NCBI GenBank assembly: GCA_022818135.1
Contig: JAFMSR010000018.1
Span: 408,051-472,050, forward strand
DNA from: Saxidomus purpurata
Lineage: Eukaryota; Mollusca; Bivalvia; Venerida; Veneridae
DNA length: 64,000 nucleotides
Direction: 5' to 3'
Below, piece by piece: positions 21,050 to 32,456 of this stretch; positions within the stretch are counted from its first letter, which is position 1; each line of letters starts with the position of its first letter. The position numbers were made by a program, and so were the translations under genes. The notes below the pieces were generated by a model. The model saw only the letters and a list, made by a program, of their open reading frames with translations, had not been told where the DNA came from and searched no databases.

Positions 21050-21470
21050 TCGCCCTTTTCGGAGAAAAGGCGATACATTGGGATCGCTTTGTCCGTCCGC
21101 CGGTCCGTCCGTCAGTCTCACAAACTTAATAATTTTGCAATTTCTTAAAATTTCTTTATCAAACTTTCAAATTGTATTGTTTATGACAAAGGGTCATGAT
21201 GCCGCCAAACTTTGTAGGTCAAAGTCATATTTGACAGAGTTATGCCCCTAACCCTAACCCTAACCCTTTTTGTACTTAGATTTTGTCACAAAAACGTAAA
21301 GTTGGCTATCACGTTGCCATTTCTTAAGATTTCTTCACCAAACTTTCAAATTGCATTGTTTATGACGTAAGGGTTATGATGTCGCCAATTCTGTTGGTTA
21401 GTGTCATATTTGACAGAGTTATGCCACTTTTTATACTTAGATTTTGTCAAAAAATTATTTTGACTTATCA
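21050..21470 (+). repeat. Minisatellite element C (two units)
   Basis: It opens with a clean hairpin, cgcccttttcggagaaaagg plus cg (21050-21073). A TCCG microsatellite follows (21088-21112). Then two ~165-bp units, each with ctttcaaattg, catgatg- or gttatgatg-type words, and a segment ending tgacagagttatgcc. The first unit contains three telomere-type repeats that the second lacks. Confidence 0.75.
21246..21267. repeat. Interstitial telomere-type repeats (CCCTAA)3.7
   Basis: Three full CCCTAA units plus CCCT lie inside the first unit of element C. In the second unit (near 21420) the same place reads gttatgccactttttatac, without them. TTAGGG is the telomere repeat of most animals, including molluscs. 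Confidence 0.85.
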
Positions 21471-21990: not shown

Positions 21991-22238
21991 TCAGATACAA
22001 GGGAATACGGGTACCGTCCCTAGCTCTTTTACGAATAGACCCCTTTGTTCTTTTATACGTGCCCGGTGTATAGCACCGATACACGCGAAACTACCTCTGG
22101 GTTTCTAACCAGTTCATCTCAGATAGGTGGGAAACACTGAAAAGCGTTTCTGAAATATCCAGTGCCCCGGCCGAGAATCGAACCGGGGACCTCCGGATTG
22201 GTAGTCCAGAGCGTTAACCACTCGGCCACCACTCCACC
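21991..22238 (-). mobile_element. tRNA-derived SINE, copy 3 (well preserved)
   Basis: The head on the minus strand reads gtggccgagtggttaacg (A box) and ccccggttcgattctcgg (B box). The body and the cagatacaaggg end match the copies at 11256 and 62729. The short plus frames 21885-22108 are shadows of this element. Confidence 0.85.
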
Positions 22239-22684: not shown

Positions 22685-23930
22685 TCTAACAGATGATTCC
22701 GGGATTCTTGTTTCGGGGAAAAGTAAATCTCATATAGATTTTAGTTTGTCTTCTGAGTTGGAACTGGTTAGTTAGTGGCTTGTTGATAACATGCTTTCAC
22801 TGCACCTTAGAAGGACAGAGTATATTCTGTTTGGGTCTAAACCTAAGCTCAGGTCACAGAGTAAATTGAATAAAGCCTGTAATGGTTCTAGTATTCAGTC
22901 AAGTTTCAGGTGTTATTTTGGACCAGCATCTTTCCTGTGATGACGTTGTCAAAAATGTCCGTTTGAAGTATTTGTATCACAAAAGTCAATTTCTGAATCT
23001 ACATACAAGAAAGTTATTGGTCATTTCATTAATCCAGTGCCATTTCGACTCTGTTTTTTTTTCTTATTTTTTTACCCTAGTTTATCTCAGTACTGGAGGA
23101 AAAGGCTTCAGACAACCCAGAATAAATTGGCTCGCTTTATCTTGAATCTGGATAGTAGATCACATGCCAGTGAGGTTCCGGTCCTTAAACTGGTTACCGG
23201 TCTCAAAGAGAATGTACCAGATCACTCTCTGTCATGTTCATAAAATTAAGACATGTTCGGCTCCAGATTGTCTTCAGGGTCATTTTCTATACATTATGTC
23301 TACACATGATCGCTGTGACTGTGCACTCCCATCCTGATTCTTAATAAACGTTTAGTGGAACAAGGCTTTACAGCTTACCAAAAGTTGGCAGTAATGGTAA
23401 AAAGTCATTTGTATATAAATGGAGCTGTCCTTTGGAATAGTCTCCCACAGGCGCTTAGGGATATACAATCTTCCCAAAAGTTAAAACAATCAATGAAAGT
23501 CCATTTAATGACCTGCTAACTTTTTTAGAAACATTAAATTTTAATTAATGTAAAATGACAGTTCATATTTAACTGGTGTTATTGTAAGGATTGGTATTTT
23601 AATGATTGGCTGACGATAACCTACTGTGATGCTACTTTTCAGTGTGATATGAGTACCTTTGACTGTGGTATATTTGATCTAAATGTGATATAGATACGCT
23701 CCAAATAAGTTCAAAATAATTAAATTAGTTAAATCACACGACTTTCGGCCTCATGCCTCCAATATTAGGGACCGCAATAGAAATAAAACTAAGCTTTTCC
23801 CCTTTTTTGTGTTATCCCTAGTATTGTTGTGTATTTCATGGCTCATATATATGCATCGTCATGTTATTGCCATGTTATATGTGCATTTTTACCGAACAAA
23901 CGTACTTACTTACTAACTTACTCACTTACT
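22685..23930 (+). pseudogene. LINE reverse transcriptase 3' half (CR1/jockey-like), decayed
   Basis: Starting near 22690 the frame reads ADDSGILVSGKSKSHIDF, the catalytic ADD box followed by the thumb. Then come LSLHLRRTEYILFGSKPKL, GVILDQHLSCDDVVKNV, LYHKSQFLNLHTRKLL, then LQTTQNKLARFILNL, and at about 23420 GAVLWNSLPQALRDIQ. These are the usual landmarks downstream of the active site in this LINE group. Several frame changes and stops interrupt them. After the coding part there is an AATAAA-like word (23781) and a TTAC-type microsatellite (23905-23931), which fits a LINE tail. The endonuclease and the upstream RT are missing, so it is 5'-truncated. Confidence 0.75.
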
Positions 23931-25437
23931 TTATTTCCTCCTTAATGAACATATGTTATTTTAAGTGATCCTCAAGTAACATTTACATACGCTGCATTTT
24001 GAGGCCGGGGTCGTTGACACGGCCCATTTTTGTTAACTTTTGCTGATGCTATTTTACGTAATTTTGCTGTGGTAGCCGGGATGTCAAACAAAACAAATAA
24101 ACCAGTTACGTCAAATAACACTGACAAACATATGACACTCTTGCTTCAAAGTGATTCATTAAATCTGGATATATAACAAAGTTTGTATTTCTGTAATACG
24201 CTAAATTCAAATTGTTACTTTTAGTCAGGCACTTTCACTTATATATAATTGTACATTTCTAATAAGCATTCAATCATAATCTTAAACAAATGTATGTATA
24301 GCCAAACGAACTGTCGTTTCTTTTCTTACTGAAAAGGAGACATTTCTTGCAAATATGAAATAACAACAACGATTGGAATGATTTGATTAACAGACGATAT
24401 AAGATGACTTGAGTCGGAAATTTTTATTTTTTTGGTTCATCCACATATTTGTGCAGTCGTTGTTTTCGCACTTGTAGACACAAACAATCGAGATGATACA
24501 TGTACTTTAATCAACTCAACATACAGAAAGTAAGTACTTATTTATTACGCTAAAAAACTTGAAGTGATCTGAAAGAATATATTTATACTGAGTAAAAATA
24601 ATGTTAAGATATTGAGCGAGTAAATCAGCACACACACTTATATCTGTTTTAGGGCAAAATGTATTTACAAAAGCAATATTAAAGAAATGTAACTTAACCG
24701 GACTAAACTGAATTATACTGTACAATGGTGCGCATATAACGCGCATACTGCGTGTCAGATAGAGTGTCTTTGTGCCGCAAATCAGTGAGTGCATGTCCTT
24801 TTTCAAACTGAATAAAGCCGTACAAATTAGATTTTTTTTCTTTCATTTCGAAAATGTTTTATAATGTTCTGAGTTAAAAGCCGCAAAATCACTGTCTTGG
24901 TAGGGAGAATTTGGTAAGCGTGATTATCAGATACCAAGGTATCATTCATGCAGAGGGACGCTGTTTAATCTCTCTTTTTAGTAGTGTTGTAGTACCGTAA
25001 ACCTTGAAATTTTGCTGTTCGTAGTTTACTTAGGAATATTTCATTTATTTTTTTAATTTTCTATTTAATAAGAGTTTTCAAGAACATTAAGAAGGATATA
25101 CAATGTTACAATACTTTGAAACAATTTGAAAACATTTTCAGTCTAGTCAAGCTAAAATAAGTTTCATTTCGATGTCAGCTGAAAACCGTGACGTCATATG
25201 ATGTACGGTATGATATTTACGTCAAGACCAACATGCACTATTATACTGGGTATATTTTCAAAGCTCTGATTCTTTCCACATGCTGAAAGAAATTTTAATT
25301 CTGTGATTTTATTTATGCTCTTATCAGAGAGAACTAATTCTGTAATTATTTACAGGGTTACAATAGTGAGGAAGAAGTGAATTTCTTTTCTTTTCTTCTA
25401 CTTCTATATATTAGCAACCGAACACAACTGAATCACA
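23931..25437. other. Unassigned stretch before the Penelope-like gene
   Basis: No recognisable coding or repeat. The minus frame at 24516-24806 has no family-like motif. A promoter for the gene at 25438 is not obvious. The word gttgtagtaccgta at 24986 recurs at 30403, beyond the downstream frame. Confidence 0.4.
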
Positions 25438-27626
25438 ATGCTTTCTAATAAAGGAAACATTATTGATAAATTACACAGCCTTAGTGTCAGTAAAAAATAT
25501 TGTTTTCATATGTTCTTACTGGAAGCAAAACAAACCTCTGATTCTTATACTTTTTCACAAGGGAATTTACATATGGATGATCAATTTTCAAACGAGTTGT
25601 TTCGATTGATAGACATATATAACCGAAAGAAGTCTGAGATGTTAGAAATTAAACAGACTTTACAGCTTCAAGCAAAAAATGCTGCCAGATTAATATATAC
25701 TTTAGAAAAAACAGATAGTTATGATAAATTCAATACACTTGATACTGCCATGGAATTATTAAATCACCGGGTAACTAAATGCAGCTTAGAATTTCATACA
25801 GAAAAGTACTCGAAAGATAATATTGTACACAATTTCACAGAAATTAATTTGAGTGACCCTTTAAAAACAATATTGGGAAAAGGTCCTAACTTCATTCCCA
25901 CTTATGCAAAACCAGACCATATAATTAAAAAAGAAATAAAAACAGAAATTTTGCAAGGTATGGGACGCCTTACGCGTCATAAATACAACAAAGGTACCAA
26001 TAACATTGTACTAGATTTGGGACTTCATAAACCAGATATCCCACACAAACAATACAATTATTGTATCGACCTTTTAGACAATTTTAATATAATTAACCAG
26101 CAAGTTAATTATAACTTACCAGGGAAAAGAAACTCCCTACCTGTTGAACTTCAACAATTGAAACAACTAGCGAATAGTAATAACGTTATAGCAAACATAG
26201 CAGACAAAAATATGGGAATTTGCATTAATAACACAGAATGGTACCAACACGAATATAAAAGGCAATTAAGTAATACAGATGTATACATGCAAATTAATGC
26301 AAATGATGTCCCTAATTTATTAAACTCCGGATATACAGACCTTAGAAATATATATGAAAGGTATGTTTTCACCATAGTTAATGAACTATTTCATACAGAA
26401 ATACTACTGTATCGCAAAAAAACTAACATAACTATACCAACATTAAATATAGTTCCAAAAGTACATAAACTGAATGAGCTACCAAGTGTTACAAATGAAA
26501 AAACTTTGAAAGGCAGACCAATAGTAAATGGGTTTGCAACTCTCAATACTGAACCATCCAAATTACTGGGCTCAATGTACAGGTGTTATTTACCTGACAT
26601 TTTAAACATATTTAAGACACATGGAATAAAACCTACAATTGTGTATAGCACAAATGATGTTATTTCACGGGTAAAAGAAATAACACTAAATACTGAACAA
26701 CTGGACAAACTCTTTTTTATTACTTTTGATGTAGCATCACTATACACATCTTTAAGTAATAAAACAATGAAGAATACTATAGATAAACTATCTAATATCT
26801 TTAAATTAGATGACAGCTGTCGGCATATGATGCACGATCTGTATACTTACATTAAGCAGTACGCTATTTTTAATACAAAAGACAATGAATTCTTTTTACA
26901 GAAGTCCGGTCTGGCTATGGGTAGCTATGACTCTTTCGATGGGGCCAATCTTGCTTTGCTACTGAGTGAATTGAAGTTGATTGACACTCCGTATAAACAC
27001 ACCATTTTAGATTTTTTCAGATACGTAGATGATGGTTTCATATTACTGAAATGTGATTTACATGAATTAGTAGATTGCATTAAATGGATCGCAGATATGT
27101 ATCCAACAGAATTAGAAATCGAATTTAAGATTAGTAAAGTAACAGCAAATTTCCTTGACTTAACCATAGGAATTGAATTTAGCACAATTCTAGACGGTAA
27201 AATTTACTACCGTACTTACCAGAAACCGTACAATAAATATGCTTATATACACATTACAGCAGTAATCACCCACCTGGTGTTAAAAAAGGAATCATAAATA
27301 CTGAATGCCATAGATATGCAAGAAACTCAATTAATCAGTTAGAATATGCCCACATGATTAGATTATTTTATCATAGATTATTGAAATGTGGTTACCCATC
27401 ACAATACATCAGGAAAAACTTACTGACATACAACTACATCAAGAATAAACCACAGCAACAAAGAAACAGAGGCATGCATAATAATGTACAAAATAGAAAT
27501 ACATATAAGTATTGCCCTATTACATACAACAAATTAAATCATAAGCACATTATTGCTAAAAAAGTGTTGAATAAAGCAAAAGACAAATATTTAAAACCAT
27601 GTTACAAAGTGGAAACAAAGATTTAA
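25438..27626 (+). CDS. Penelope-like reverse transcriptase, one frameshift
   Basis: An ATG frame of 619 codons ends at 27297. The homologous reading continues in another frame from 27255 to 27626 after a 2-nt gain (or 1-nt loss) at about 27253, within cacattacagc. Domains in order: an N-terminal region with a LNKGPNFIPT-like string (LGKGPNFIPT, about residue 150), VPKVHK (about 338), GRPIVNG, motif A FDVASLYTS (430), GLAMGS (491), catalytic YVDD (529) and FLDLTI (572). After the shift come HYSSNHPPGVKKG and a basic tail. This order and the YRKP/HYSS-HP ending are diagnostic of Penelope-like elements, which copy RNA into DNA. The usual C-terminal GIY-YIG nuclease is not seen; the protein stops about 125 residues after the shift. 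Odd: GLAMGS is followed by YDSFDGANL instead of PLSP-IANL. Codon use is very AT-rich, and there are no introns. Apart from one frameshift it is well preserved. Confidence 0.85.
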
Positions 27627-27689
27627 AAAATACTATTAACAAACAAACGACTTCACAAAAAACTCTCCAAATATAAACAAAAGAATTAG

Positions 27690-29060
27690 ACATTATGGTT
27701 TGAATACCCTGGCAGAATAAGGATGGTTTTTCAGAAGATATGTTTTTAAGAACAAAAGAAACTAAATAAAATAGATAGAAATTTAATTATTTTGTCAGAA
27801 TATAAGATCTATAATATGATGATGATGGCTTTCCATAGATATTGAATTTTGAACATAACTTAACAAAAACTAAATAGAATAGATAAAATAAGGTAATTTT
27901 GTCGGAATATAAGATTTATAACAGGGTGGTGTTAACCTTCCACAGATCTTACATATTTGAACATTACTTAAACACAACTAAATAAAATAGATAGAAATTT
28001 AGGTATTTTGTTAGATTATAAGAATTATAATACAGAGGTGTTGGCTGTCCATAGATCTTACAGATTTGAACATAACTTAACAAGAACTAAATAAAATAGA
28101 TAGCAACTTAGGTATTTTGTCAGAATATAATATCCATAACATGGTGATGATGGCTTTCCATCGATCTTACAGTTTTGAACATAATTTCACAAGACTAAAA
28201 TAGATAGAAATTTGTGTTGGTTGTCCATAAATCTTACAGACTTGAACATAATAACTTGACAAGAACTAAATTAAATAGATAAAAATTTAGGTATTTTTGC
28301 CAGAATATAAGATTTATAACATGGTGGTGTAGGCTTTCCATAAATCTTACAGTTTTTAACAAAAACTAAATAAAATAGATAGAAATTTAGGTATTTCTGT
28401 CAAAATATAAGATCTATAACATGGTGGTGTTGGCTTTCCATAGATCTTAAAATTTAAACATAACTGAACAAGAACTAAATAAAATAGATAGAAATTTAGG
28501 TATTATTGCCAGAATATAAGATCTATATCATGGTTGTTGGCTTTCCATAGATCTTTAGGGTTAAAAACATAACTCAACAAGAACTAAATAAAATAGATAG
28601 AAATTTAGGTAATTTTGGCAGAACATAAGATCTATAATAAGGTGGTGTTGACTTTCCATAGATCTATAGCATGGTAGTGATGGCTATCCATAGATCTTGC
28701 AGTTTTGAGCATTACTTAACAAGAACCAAATAAAATAGATAGAAATTTAGGTATTTTTGCCAGAATATTAAATATATAACTTTATGGTGGTAATTTTTAG
28801 TAGATCTATAACTTGGTGGTGTTAATTTTCCATATTTCTAACAGGTGTAAAACATAACTTAAACAGAACTAAATAGAATAGAAATAAACTTAGTTTTTTT
28901 GCCAGAGTATAAGATCTGTAACATGGAGATGTCGGCTTCCCATAAATCTTACAGATTTAAACATAACTTAAAAGAACTAAATTAAATAGATAGAAATTTA
29001 AGTTTGTGTTAGATTATAATACTAACATGGATTTCCATAGTTTAATCATATTTTGATAAA
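27690..29060. repeat. 108-bp tandem array downstream of the Penelope-like gene
   Basis: About twelve diverged units. A marker word, actaaataaaatagatagaa, recurs near 27760, 27871, 27978, 28087, 28194, 28266, 28366, 28475, 28585, 28727, 28867 and 28975. Most spacings are 100-111 bp, two are about 140 and one is 72. A second conserved block is tggctttccatagatctta. The array starts about 70 bp after the RT stop and is not found elsewhere in this window. It is not related to the AGGTCA minisatellites. Confidence 0.85.
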
Positions 29061-29694
29061 GAACTAAAGTGCCAACTTATTATTTACAAAGGAAGTACAA
29101 ATAAACAAATTAAATAAATAGGTAAGTATCAGTATTTAAGATCACAAAATTTATTTCTATTTACAAGAGAGTTGGTATTTAAACAATCATGAGAGTTGTA
29201 GTAATGTAAAACCGAATTAATAATATATAGAAACACACAATCATACATAAAATTGGTAATGTGAGAACTTAAATAAGATGTAGTACCGGAAAACCAAGTG
29301 AATATATCATAGGGCTCTTGTAAGGAATTAAATTTTATAATCAACAAATCTAACATGAATTTTATTATCAACAAATCAAATAAACAAAATGAAAGTAAGC
29401 ATATACAGCATAGAATATAAAGTAAAATAAGAGAAATATGATAACCATACATAAAACAACTTCAGATATAATACATGTACACTATGAATATCTATAAAAG
29501 AACGTTGTAATACCGTAAACCATATGACATAGCAATATTGATACATAAAATTGAAATATCGCAAAAACAATGTTGTAGTGTCTTTAAACCAAAAGAAGTA
29601 TATCGAACCAACTTTATTGTAAGAATTCCTGTCAGTTAAACTTTAAGTAAATCTGAGAAGATATTTACTAAATTACAATTTAAAGCTTTATTAA
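29061..29694. other. AT-rich spacer between array and downstream frame
   Basis: There is no coding support. The minus frames at 29129-29570 are low-complexity AT translation. Words like gtagtaccg or gtaataccg-taaacc occur at about 29278 and 29503. Confidence 0.4.
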
Positions 29695-30132
29695 AATGGA
29701 CTGGGTAAAAAACAAAAGAAAAAAGTAAAAGAAATTACAAGAGAACTTTTATTTGATCCTAATATAGGGCATCATTATAACCATGATGATATTATCAAAG
29801 CTTATCTGTTTCGATAGAACGAAGAACTATGCTGGACAACATACACCACTCTTTATGATATGAAAAAAATGCCAGTATCTTCTGATAAATATATGATATT
29901 TATCGGCACTGAAAAAGTTAGCTTGGGTGATTTCAAGTACAATAACTATTTCTGTATGATTTTATACAATGCAGAATTTGATAGTACAGTCAAACTTCGT
30001 GGGTGCTTCACCAAAGCAATTGCTAGGTTCGTTCATAAGATGAACAATGATCTTAAACAAATTGTATACAGCAATATCAACAAGCATTTCTTCATGGAAG
30101 ATGTAGACTTTGAAGAGGACTTCGACGTCTGA
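29695..30132 (+). CDS. Unrecognised 145-codon frame with one internal TAG
   Basis: The frame is open from 29695 to a TGA at 30130, apart from a TAG at 29815-29817. The longest ATG piece is 29860-30132 (90 residues). Visible traits: a lysine-rich start (GKKQKKKVKEI), an aromatic and Asn-rich middle with FKYNNYFCMILYN, CFTKAIARFVHKMNNDLK, and an acidic end (EDVDFEEDFDV). I do not recognise a family. It lies in the same direction as the Penelope-like gene and shares its AT-rich codon use. That makes a second product of the same element possible but unproven. An alternative is a chance frame in AT-rich DNA; the low hydrophobic noise and charged tail argue mildly against this. Confidence 0.4.
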
Positions 30133-32456
30133 ATTCATAATTGGTATGGTATGTAATGTGAGGTCTGGGTCGGCGTGACTGCTCGGTATGCAGTGAGCGT
30201 TGCACGTGCGCTAAAGGATCCTTTTAAACTGCCATTAATTCCTCGCAAGGGAATTTGCCGGGTAGCCTTGCTGATGTGGGCTTTGCATTGCATAGTATAC
30301 ACAATTTTGATCACTCTACAAACAGAAAAGTAGGTTAGTTATAGTTTAGCTGTAGTTGTAGATACAGTATGTTAGTTTATAGTAGTTTTATAGTGTAGTT
30401 AGGTTGTAGTACCGTATATTTAGGTTTAGAACGGTATAATTCAAGGTATTTTTAGCATTTAGTTACGGTGTCATAGTAGATTTTTAAACATTTTTTTGCC
30501 TAGACAGGTTGTTGGGATATCTGAATACCGCTTATCCGTGTGGTTGTCATTCATCTCATACAGTACTACTTGATGTCACACTGCCATGGATACAGCGGCT
30601 AAAGGTACTTAAACTTTTTAAGTACTGCTGATTATATCGTGCCGAATAGCACTTGAAACAAACAAGATATAAATATAACTGAAAAAAAACAAACACTTCA
30701 GTAGAGCAGAGGATAAAATTTATTGGCCATGCTTTGCACTGTATAACCTTTCAATCCATTTATTCAAAATTGTTTCTACATAATGAAATGTTTTTGTTTT
30801 TTTAAAAGGACTGGTATTTTGTATGTCATTTCTGGATTTCTTTTATAGCTAACAATGTTTTCAGATGTAACGTCCCTATTTATGTTTCCATTCCAGTCTA
30901 GTAATGCTAAATCAATCCTTACTTTGTAAATGGAATCTCTTGTCTACAAACTGTATAAAAGCACTGTTGAAAGACGTAATGAGTGTCCATACAATATTTA
31001 TACTTTACTGATTCTTATAAACTGGCAGTCCTTTTTAAAAATCAGTCAGAATTTCAACAGCTCTGTCACTTTTCAACTGGAATTTGTGGAGGCTAACTGT
31101 TGTCACTATCCATGACTATTTTAATATCATGATATTTTCTTAAATCCGAAAGACAATGTAAGACTGATGTCAAACACAGTGAGAAGGAACAAAATGAAAA
31201 AAGTTCTGGAATGGTGCAGGCCTTTTTCTATTACCAAATCAATTAATTTCAATTATCAACAGGGTTGAGATAATATAGGCAATTAGGAAGGACTGTCAAA
31301 ACAATACACATTCATGGCATCAATTTCACTGATAAACTTTGGGCACTTTATAACTGGCATTTATTGTGTTGCCTTGAAAAATTAGCATCAGAAAATAATG
31401 CATGTGGTGAGAAAAAGAAGTATGAAATTATCATGACAAATTAACAAAGGATTGTGTAGTATACTGGTTAGGTGTCAGATAAAAAGTTTTTCACTAACTT
31501 GATGAATAATCATTATTATTATTATAAATCAGTTTCATAACAAAAAGGTTGTTTCAACTAAATTACTTACTATAGGTAGTGATTGTGAATCTGTGATACA
31601 GTGAATTCCCGTCTGCTACAGAATGCCTTGTGGATGATAAACAAAACCACGTGCTAGTAATGTTTGCATTCCTCTCTATCTAAGGTTATGACCTCTAAGC
31701 TCCTCCCGGGAAATTCAATGTTTTGACAGTTGGGTTTAAACTTTTTTGGGAAGTATACTTCTTTGACTTTTATTGAAAAAACTAAATGCACCAATAGAAA
31801 TAGAATATTACAAAATACACTTGTGCAAATTTTGATTTTTTTGTAACTTCTGTAGTTCTTTCAGGGTTTTAAAAAAGGGTTCTCTGATGTTAACCATGTA
31901 CATTTTATATAGAAACCTGCCCCAGCGCCATCTTCCGGCTTTTATATCCCAGTTGGGGGTTTAAATAAGTAACGTACTTAACGGCATTTGATGAAATCTG
32001 TACATATCTGGTAGATTAACCATCAAAATTTAGGTTAAAACTACATTTTAAAATGTGTTTTATGTTTGCAGCCATAAAAATATTAAGGATTACTGTAATA
32101 TATATACCTCTGATCCTAAGATTTCATTAGTAAATAAAAAGGAATTAATGTCAAATTATGTCAGTGGGACAATTTAATAAGGGCATAATATTCGTCTGCA
32201 CTTGCATTCCAAGTTAAGTAACTGTTAATTTCATGCGAAATGCTTGGGATATCTACGTTGTAAACTTATATATTTGCTTTGATTCGGAGGCCGAAACAGC
32301 TGCCGGCAATATTTCAATAATTGAACTACACGTTTATTTTTATCAGACATTGTAGACTTTAGTTGTTGATATAACAAACCTTGACTCATTTAAAATCAAG
32401 AACATATGAATTATGTATTCATTTTGCTATTTACATATCAACCCTGCTTGACAAAC
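30133..32456. other. Unassigned stretch
   Basis: No gene is recognised. A moderately GC-rich patch at 30160-30290 (including cacgtgcgctaaaggatcc) looks like part of an unknown repeat. Only one copy is seen here. Confidence 0.35.

Follow-up and report, generated by a model that had tools for sequence, protein, structure and literature searches.

How does a retrotransposon without an endonuclease of its own come to be inserted inside chromosomes? The question is raised by a reverse transcriptase (RT) gene in a 64,000-nucleotide stretch of DNA from the bivalve Saxidomus purpurata, analysed here at its full length as the window (C18:408051-472050 of the 1.13-Gb assembly). With a probability of roughly 0.64, the window carries an endonuclease-deficient Penelope-like element (PLE) that is primed on DNA breaks inside chromosomes and moves non-autonomous units in trans. 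Priming on existing broken ends fits the common 3' end of the insertions, their varied 5' ends, target duplications that are either at chance level or long, and the lack of telomeric junctions. Such priming would therefore allow insertion inside chromosomes without a nuclease encoded by the element.

The enzyme is a PLE reverse transcriptase, as homologs, profile-profile comparison and predicted fold agree. Its best homologs share about 40% identity over about 80% of the query, and hhalign against 15 PLE-type proteins that carry an endonuclease (EN+) returns a probability of 100 (E 1.7e-45, 564 columns). A profile search proposed in the first-pass annotation gave no RVT or GIY-YIG match, so that RT kinship had to come through hhalign, homologs and fold; neither window frame reaches the cut-off of any Pfam or NCBIfam model, RVT_1 included. 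This is not evidence against an RT, because RVT_1 also misses four scanned proteins of the same clade (P0001, P0002, P0015, P0022), and homology and fold are clear. The predicted structure resembles that of telomerase, the best VIA-align matches spanning the region before the RT core, the RT and the thumb at 11-14% identity. The RT thus shows the kinship with telomerase known for PLEs, which are held to share their most recent common ancestor with it (PMC5718144). A PDB sequence search with the clade profile gave no telomerase match.

Motif B reads GLAMGSYDS here versus G.AMG...AP/SP in other PLEs. The altered form was matched in 28 of 34 proteins (P0001-P0031, P0066-P0068) versus 0 of 163 others; among the six that did not match, P0016 reads GFAMRSYDS and five are fragments of 348-456 residues. 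The change is a signature of the clade and not decay. Both the PLE identity of the RT and its unusual GLAMGS context, as first noticed, are thus supported.

The missing endonuclease was sought with a GIY-YIG profile built from 12 EN+ PLE sequences and searched against 83 proteins. The profile recovered 23 of the 83, including 11 outside the training set, and found no match in P0001-P0031, P0066-P0068 or an intact sibling of the window copy at locus L010. A six-frame search of L009-L013 gave nothing above 5.3 bits, versus 111 and 87 bits for the EN+ controls L022 and L025, and a six-frame search of L010 with its upstream flank revealed no N-terminal GIY-YIG. The RT protein stops within the linker that in other PLEs leads into GIY-YIG. 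The absence of this domain had been claimed for the window copy, and the sibling, set beforehand as the place where the claim could fail, likewise has no GIY-YIG beyond the RT.

In the PLE tree, the window RT and 24 protein relatives group in one clade (100/99) whose members all carry the altered motif and lack the nuclease. The clade sits in the half of the tree where 0 of 69 rows have a GIY-YIG match; the RT falls outside the endonuclease-bearing half and so is not inside an endonuclease-bearing clade. The first tree used 17 of the 34 proteins P0032-P0065, and the 121-row tree used 70 aligned of 118 proteins P0080-P0197, with rows of 250 or fewer filled columns meant to be dropped. Fragments P0016, P0018-P0021, P0026 and P0028-P0031 were excluded from the trees, as were P0071, P0072, P0077, P0079 and P0086 from the 121-row tree (fragments or very long branches).

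The intact sibling on contig C4 (L002, L010) is 98% identical to the window copy and has a single open frame of 751 codons, encoding an RT of 749 residues counted from the first Met; it is the uninterrupted copy that the first-pass annotation had proposed to look for. The whole unit, E, spans L010:1885-9392 (7508 bp), and its RT open reading frame (ORF) lies between two 1462-bp direct repeats with 100% identity to each other. Because the 5' repeat of L013 is only about 402 bp, versus 1462 bp in L010, these repeats are taken as pseudo-long terminal repeats (pseudo-LTRs) from partial tandems, an origin described for PLEs (PMC11167929; PMC3846280). The order in L010 is 5' pseudo-LTR, RT ORF, an array of approximately 109-bp units, and 3' pseudo-LTR with a second small ORF. 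No RNase H or integrase of the kind found in LTR retrotransposons was seen, in that no Pfam model matches the 749-residue protein at E values up to 5.

Relative to this plan, the window copy is truncated, and its 5' pseudo-LTR is missing. The PLE motifs listed earlier were confirmed across the two RT frames, while the unit proved larger than first noted: beyond the RT ORF it takes in a tandem array, a 3' pseudo-LTR and another, small ORF. Its parts, in window coordinates, are as follows.

24963-30666, plus strand: whole inserted copy, 5'-truncated relative to L010 (E1824 to E7508 of 7508), with the common 3' end AAACAAACAAG; 98.4% identical to L010 across 5712 bp.
25438-27297, plus strand: RT ORF, frame 1, with an N-terminal, mostly helical region, ADKN motif, PKVHK, FDVASLYTS, GLAMGSYDS and YVDDG.
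27237-27626, plus strand: RT ORF, frame 2, with HYSSNHPPG, the thumb and part of the C-terminal linker; no GIY-YIG.
27624-27626, plus strand: premature stop, which removes the conserved ...LLTxKxLHxKL tail.
27744-29031, plus strand: array of approximately 109-bp units in tandem, located after the ORF and before the 3' pseudo-LTR; L011-L018 contain matches to it.
29186-30666, plus strand: 3' pseudo-LTR, 97.6% identical to the 1462-bp pseudo-LTRs of L010.
29860-30132, plus strand: small ORF of 90 amino acids within the pseudo-LTR, under purifying selection and with no known domain.
30639-30666, plus strand: 3' end, comprising a short hairpin (GTGC/GCAC) and then the A/C-rich run TTGAAACAAACAAG, the probable start site of reverse transcription.

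The window gene had been described as one frameshift from intact, and this count needs revision. Two lesions separate it from the sibling, namely a small frame-shifting insertion near 27243 and the premature stop; the sibling protein runs approximately 20 residues past that stop through the conserved C-terminal tail.

Could the element encode a nuclease of some other kind, in the N- or C-terminal region of the RT protein or in the small ORF? Residues 1-130 and 677-749 are barely covered by structure matches, and the small ORF is selected (dN/dS, the ratio of nonsynonymous to synonymous rates, stays under 0.4 in all 5 comparisons) without a Pfam match above cut-off. An unrecognised nuclease is nonetheless quite unlikely, in that the model of the N-terminal region consists mostly of long helices and the small ORF has no GIY-YIG match, although the structure model of this ORF is of too low quality to interpret (pLDDT 42). 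The small ORF is also frame-shifted in L010 itself. A GIY-YIG reading of it, raised by scores of 4-5 bits, was dropped when hhalign gave a probability of 1.1.

Clues to how the family integrates come from insertion junctions. From a 3'-end set of 18 loci, 16 were used, and these 16 distinct insertions end at AAACAAACA and then enter differing flanks, with the exception of L048, which ends at AAACAAGCA. The other two loci, L012 and L017, have the same end point with changed letters and stand outside the pattern. Tandem transcripts would run on from this site into AGATATATATCTT. On the 5' side, no two of 10 loci share the start position of their first unit (that of L054 being ambiguous within the small array). 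Junctions were read for 15 loci; L038 and L045, which lie inside arrays, and L039 and L047, which repeat the flanks of L035 and L044, were not counted.

Both junctions were read in 13 insertions, 2 with duplications and 11 with none above chance. The duplications are an exact 177-bp copy of the target around a non-autonomous insertion on C15 (L053 and L036) and one of 51-52 bp on C9. In the other 9 of 11 two-sided insertions the duplication is at most 6 bp, and mismatched pairs of flanks average 3.1 and reach 9; short-word BLAST of the L032 and L033 flanks found no match longer than 8 bp. At L033, a 50-bp inverted copy of the common 3' end lies on the 5' side, as though priming had taken place on each of the broken ends. 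Dependence on breaks other than chromosome ends, one of the two options raised in the first-pass annotation, thus gains indirect support.

An endonuclease might instead be supplied in trans by canonical EN+ PLEs of the same genome, several of which have open frames (L022, L025, L028), and AT-rich junctions like those of this family have been reported for PLE endonuclease targets (PMC11167929). This alternative is unlikely. The clear duplications of 177 and about 52 bp are far from the 8-10 bp given for EN+ PLEs (PMC3846280), 11 of 13 insertions have none above chance, and the RTs of the two groups are distant at 26-29% identity. A study in rotifers reports no sign that EN-deficient Athena elements are co-mobilised (PMC3846280).

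Besides the possibility of a borrowed nuclease, several observations weigh against priming on existing breaks or against the steps that lead to it. The mechanism of the family is read from junctions only, and both AT-rich targets (PMC11167929) and insertions without duplication (PMC3846280) have been reported for EN+ PLEs as well. Three insertions of an EN+ family have duplications of 4, 5 and 10 bp, a number too small for contrast, and the 6-bp match at L010 is possibly a short duplication. The excess of ATAT or TATA within the first 9 nucleotides of the flanks (7 of 16 versus 8.1% in the background, p 1.3e-4) comes from a test that was picked after the junctions had been viewed and whose background includes some family loci. 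Many of the GIY-YIG-free tree rows come from short contigs and are possibly cut. Folding of the 3'-end RNA shows no unusual stability (z -1.14), and Foldseek ranks LINE-1 ORF2p first and telomerase only from rank 3, with low TM-scores.

The other option raised at first, dependence on chromosome ends, is not supported. Of 25 hand-chosen sites on large contigs (sites on small contigs, C6:6.24 and C16 excluded, L011 and L012 both kept), 23 are situated over 1 Mb inward of the contig end, which is not necessarily a telomere; 14 of the contigs C1-C19 measure 36.6-70.6 Mb. For the 25 sites, the mean relative distance to the nearest end is 0.37 (p 0.10). No junction read adjoins telomeric repeats, nor do the flanks past the 3' end contain any. 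A scan of the family loci and the window for telomeric runs found a single one, a short interstitial (CCCTAA)3 at window positions 21246-21263, which precedes the window copy by 3.7 kb.

It is accordingly very unlikely that the family is telomere-specialised in the manner of the EN-deficient Athena, Coprina or Terminon elements, even though it likewise lacks an endonuclease and lies on the GIY-YIG-free side of the tree. The window copy lies 0.43 Mb from its contig end, and the 11 RT copies lean endward (mean relative distance 0.27, Kolmogorov-Smirnov p 0.066). Set against these points are the junctions and positions just described, which rule out telomere attachment as the main mode, and the absence of any Rfam hammerhead match in L009 and L010 at E values up to 5, where a divergent ribozyme is possible.

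How active is the family? RT matches at 49% identity or more occupy at least 13 loci (71 of 155 candidates were scored), and one has an uninterrupted full-length frame; the earlier suggestion that the RT gene may be one of many copies is thus not supported. Further matches at 26-29% identity form a different set, whose full frames (L022, L025, L028) have a C-terminal GIY-YIG. One canonical EN+ PLE of this genome, L024, is a partial tandem with an upstream 302-residue ORF overlapping the RT frame. Nine RT copies were entered for comparison with L010 and eight gave dN/dS values, from 0.23 to 0.58 (L018 gave none); the lineage therefore evolved under purifying selection. L011 and L012 have flanks in common (4 kb at 97% identity) and look like one insertion event that was copied.

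The small number of RT-carrying loci, with one uninterrupted frame, might suggest a domesticated or nearly dead RT gene. This is highly improbable given the identical pseudo-LTRs, the varied truncations, the several insertion sites and the purifying selection between copies. The recent activity proposed for the window copy agrees with the identity of the sibling's two pseudo-LTRs and with selection on the RT.

A search with the pseudo-LTR uncovered a second layer of the family, namely head-to-tail arrays of non-autonomous units that share E824-2187, the 3' half of the pseudo-LTR together with the 5' leader. On C270 the unit is 2739 bp, and units read in L029 (C270:19300-25700) are 99.9% identical; spacing at other array loci is about 2.5-2.76 kb. 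Numbers of these units are lower bounds, 40 of 446 first-look candidates having been scored. The non-autonomous unit carries its own 61-bp tandem array, which has a core of approximately 40 nucleotides in common with the 109-bp array of the RT-bearing element. Because their ends are shared with the element, these units are probably moved by its RT in trans. L029 is apparently a young satellite-like array built by retrotransposition.

Priming on existing breaks can be set out as a series of candidate steps. The RT would bind the structured 3' region of read-through or tandem transcripts, its own or, in trans, those of non-autonomous units, and cDNA would begin at the A/C-rich AAACAAACA site. 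Priming would come from a DNA 3' end left free by a nick or break already present, and this end would often pair with the AT-rich RNA immediately downstream of that site (AGATATATATCTT). Synthesis might then extend a variable distance, sometimes across several tandem units, before host repair closes the 5' side.

Much of this anatomy is shared with canonical EN+ PLEs (Penelope/Poseidon, Neptune, Perere), including the PLE-type RT with its ADKN/ADKG-like motif. Both also have partial tandems that give pseudo-LTRs, 5' ends truncated to varying extents, inverted fragments on the 5' side (one insertion in the present family) and reverse transcription that begins internally, here probably, at an A/C-rich site (PMC3846280; PMC11167929); internal initiation at an A/C-rich stem loop has been published for a canonical PLE (PMC11167929). 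The family differs in having no GIY-YIG, the motif B form G.AMGSYDS, no hammerhead found, and duplications at chance level or very long. Telomerase shares the predicted fold, whereas the family is a transposon with its own template and tandem copies. PLEs with an N-terminal endonuclease, Naiad and Chlamys, have pseudo-LTRs and are not known to carry hammerheads, and in contrast to them the family has no GIY-YIG upstream of the RT.

EN-deficient telomere-associated PLEs (Athena and Terminons, as well as fungal and protist elements) likewise have an RT ORF without endonuclease, and two ORFs and head-to-tail arrays are described for them too (PMC6431247). EN-deficient PLEs are described as primed from exposed ends or double-strand breaks and as largely confined to chromosome ends (PMC3846280). 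The present family lies inside chromosomes, with no telomeric capping or 3' telomeric repeat and with pseudo-LTR anatomy; the tree places it on the GIY-YIG-free side and includes no labelled Athena or Coprina sequence. In a search of the open-access literature, no title or abstract start names such a clade, and a prior description is possible.

Upstream of the copy, the window also contains a tRNA-like sequence at 22169-22230 (minus strand; 24.5 bits, below the Rfam cut-off), possibly the head of a tRNA-derived short interspersed element. An ORF at 23319-23519 (plus strand) resembles what we take to be the C-terminal end of a long interspersed element RT (LWNSLP...).

What would such a family mean for PLE biology? 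It would keep the break or exposed-end priming of EN-deficient PLEs, but not their confinement to chromosome ends. A broader reading, held tentatively and at somewhat below even odds, is that this PLE clade, which has members in many assemblies, gave up both endonuclease and telomere attachment, uses its telomerase-like RT to extend broken 3' ends inside chromosomes, and mobilises non-autonomous partners whose insertions form head-to-tail arrays and give rise to satellite DNA. If this is true, a nuclease-free clade inserting within chromosomes would demonstrate that accidental breaks can sustain a telomerase-like RT, and retrotransposition would have a route to the creation of tandem satellite arrays. 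The idea that telomerase originated from such an enzyme would then become testable with an intact gene.
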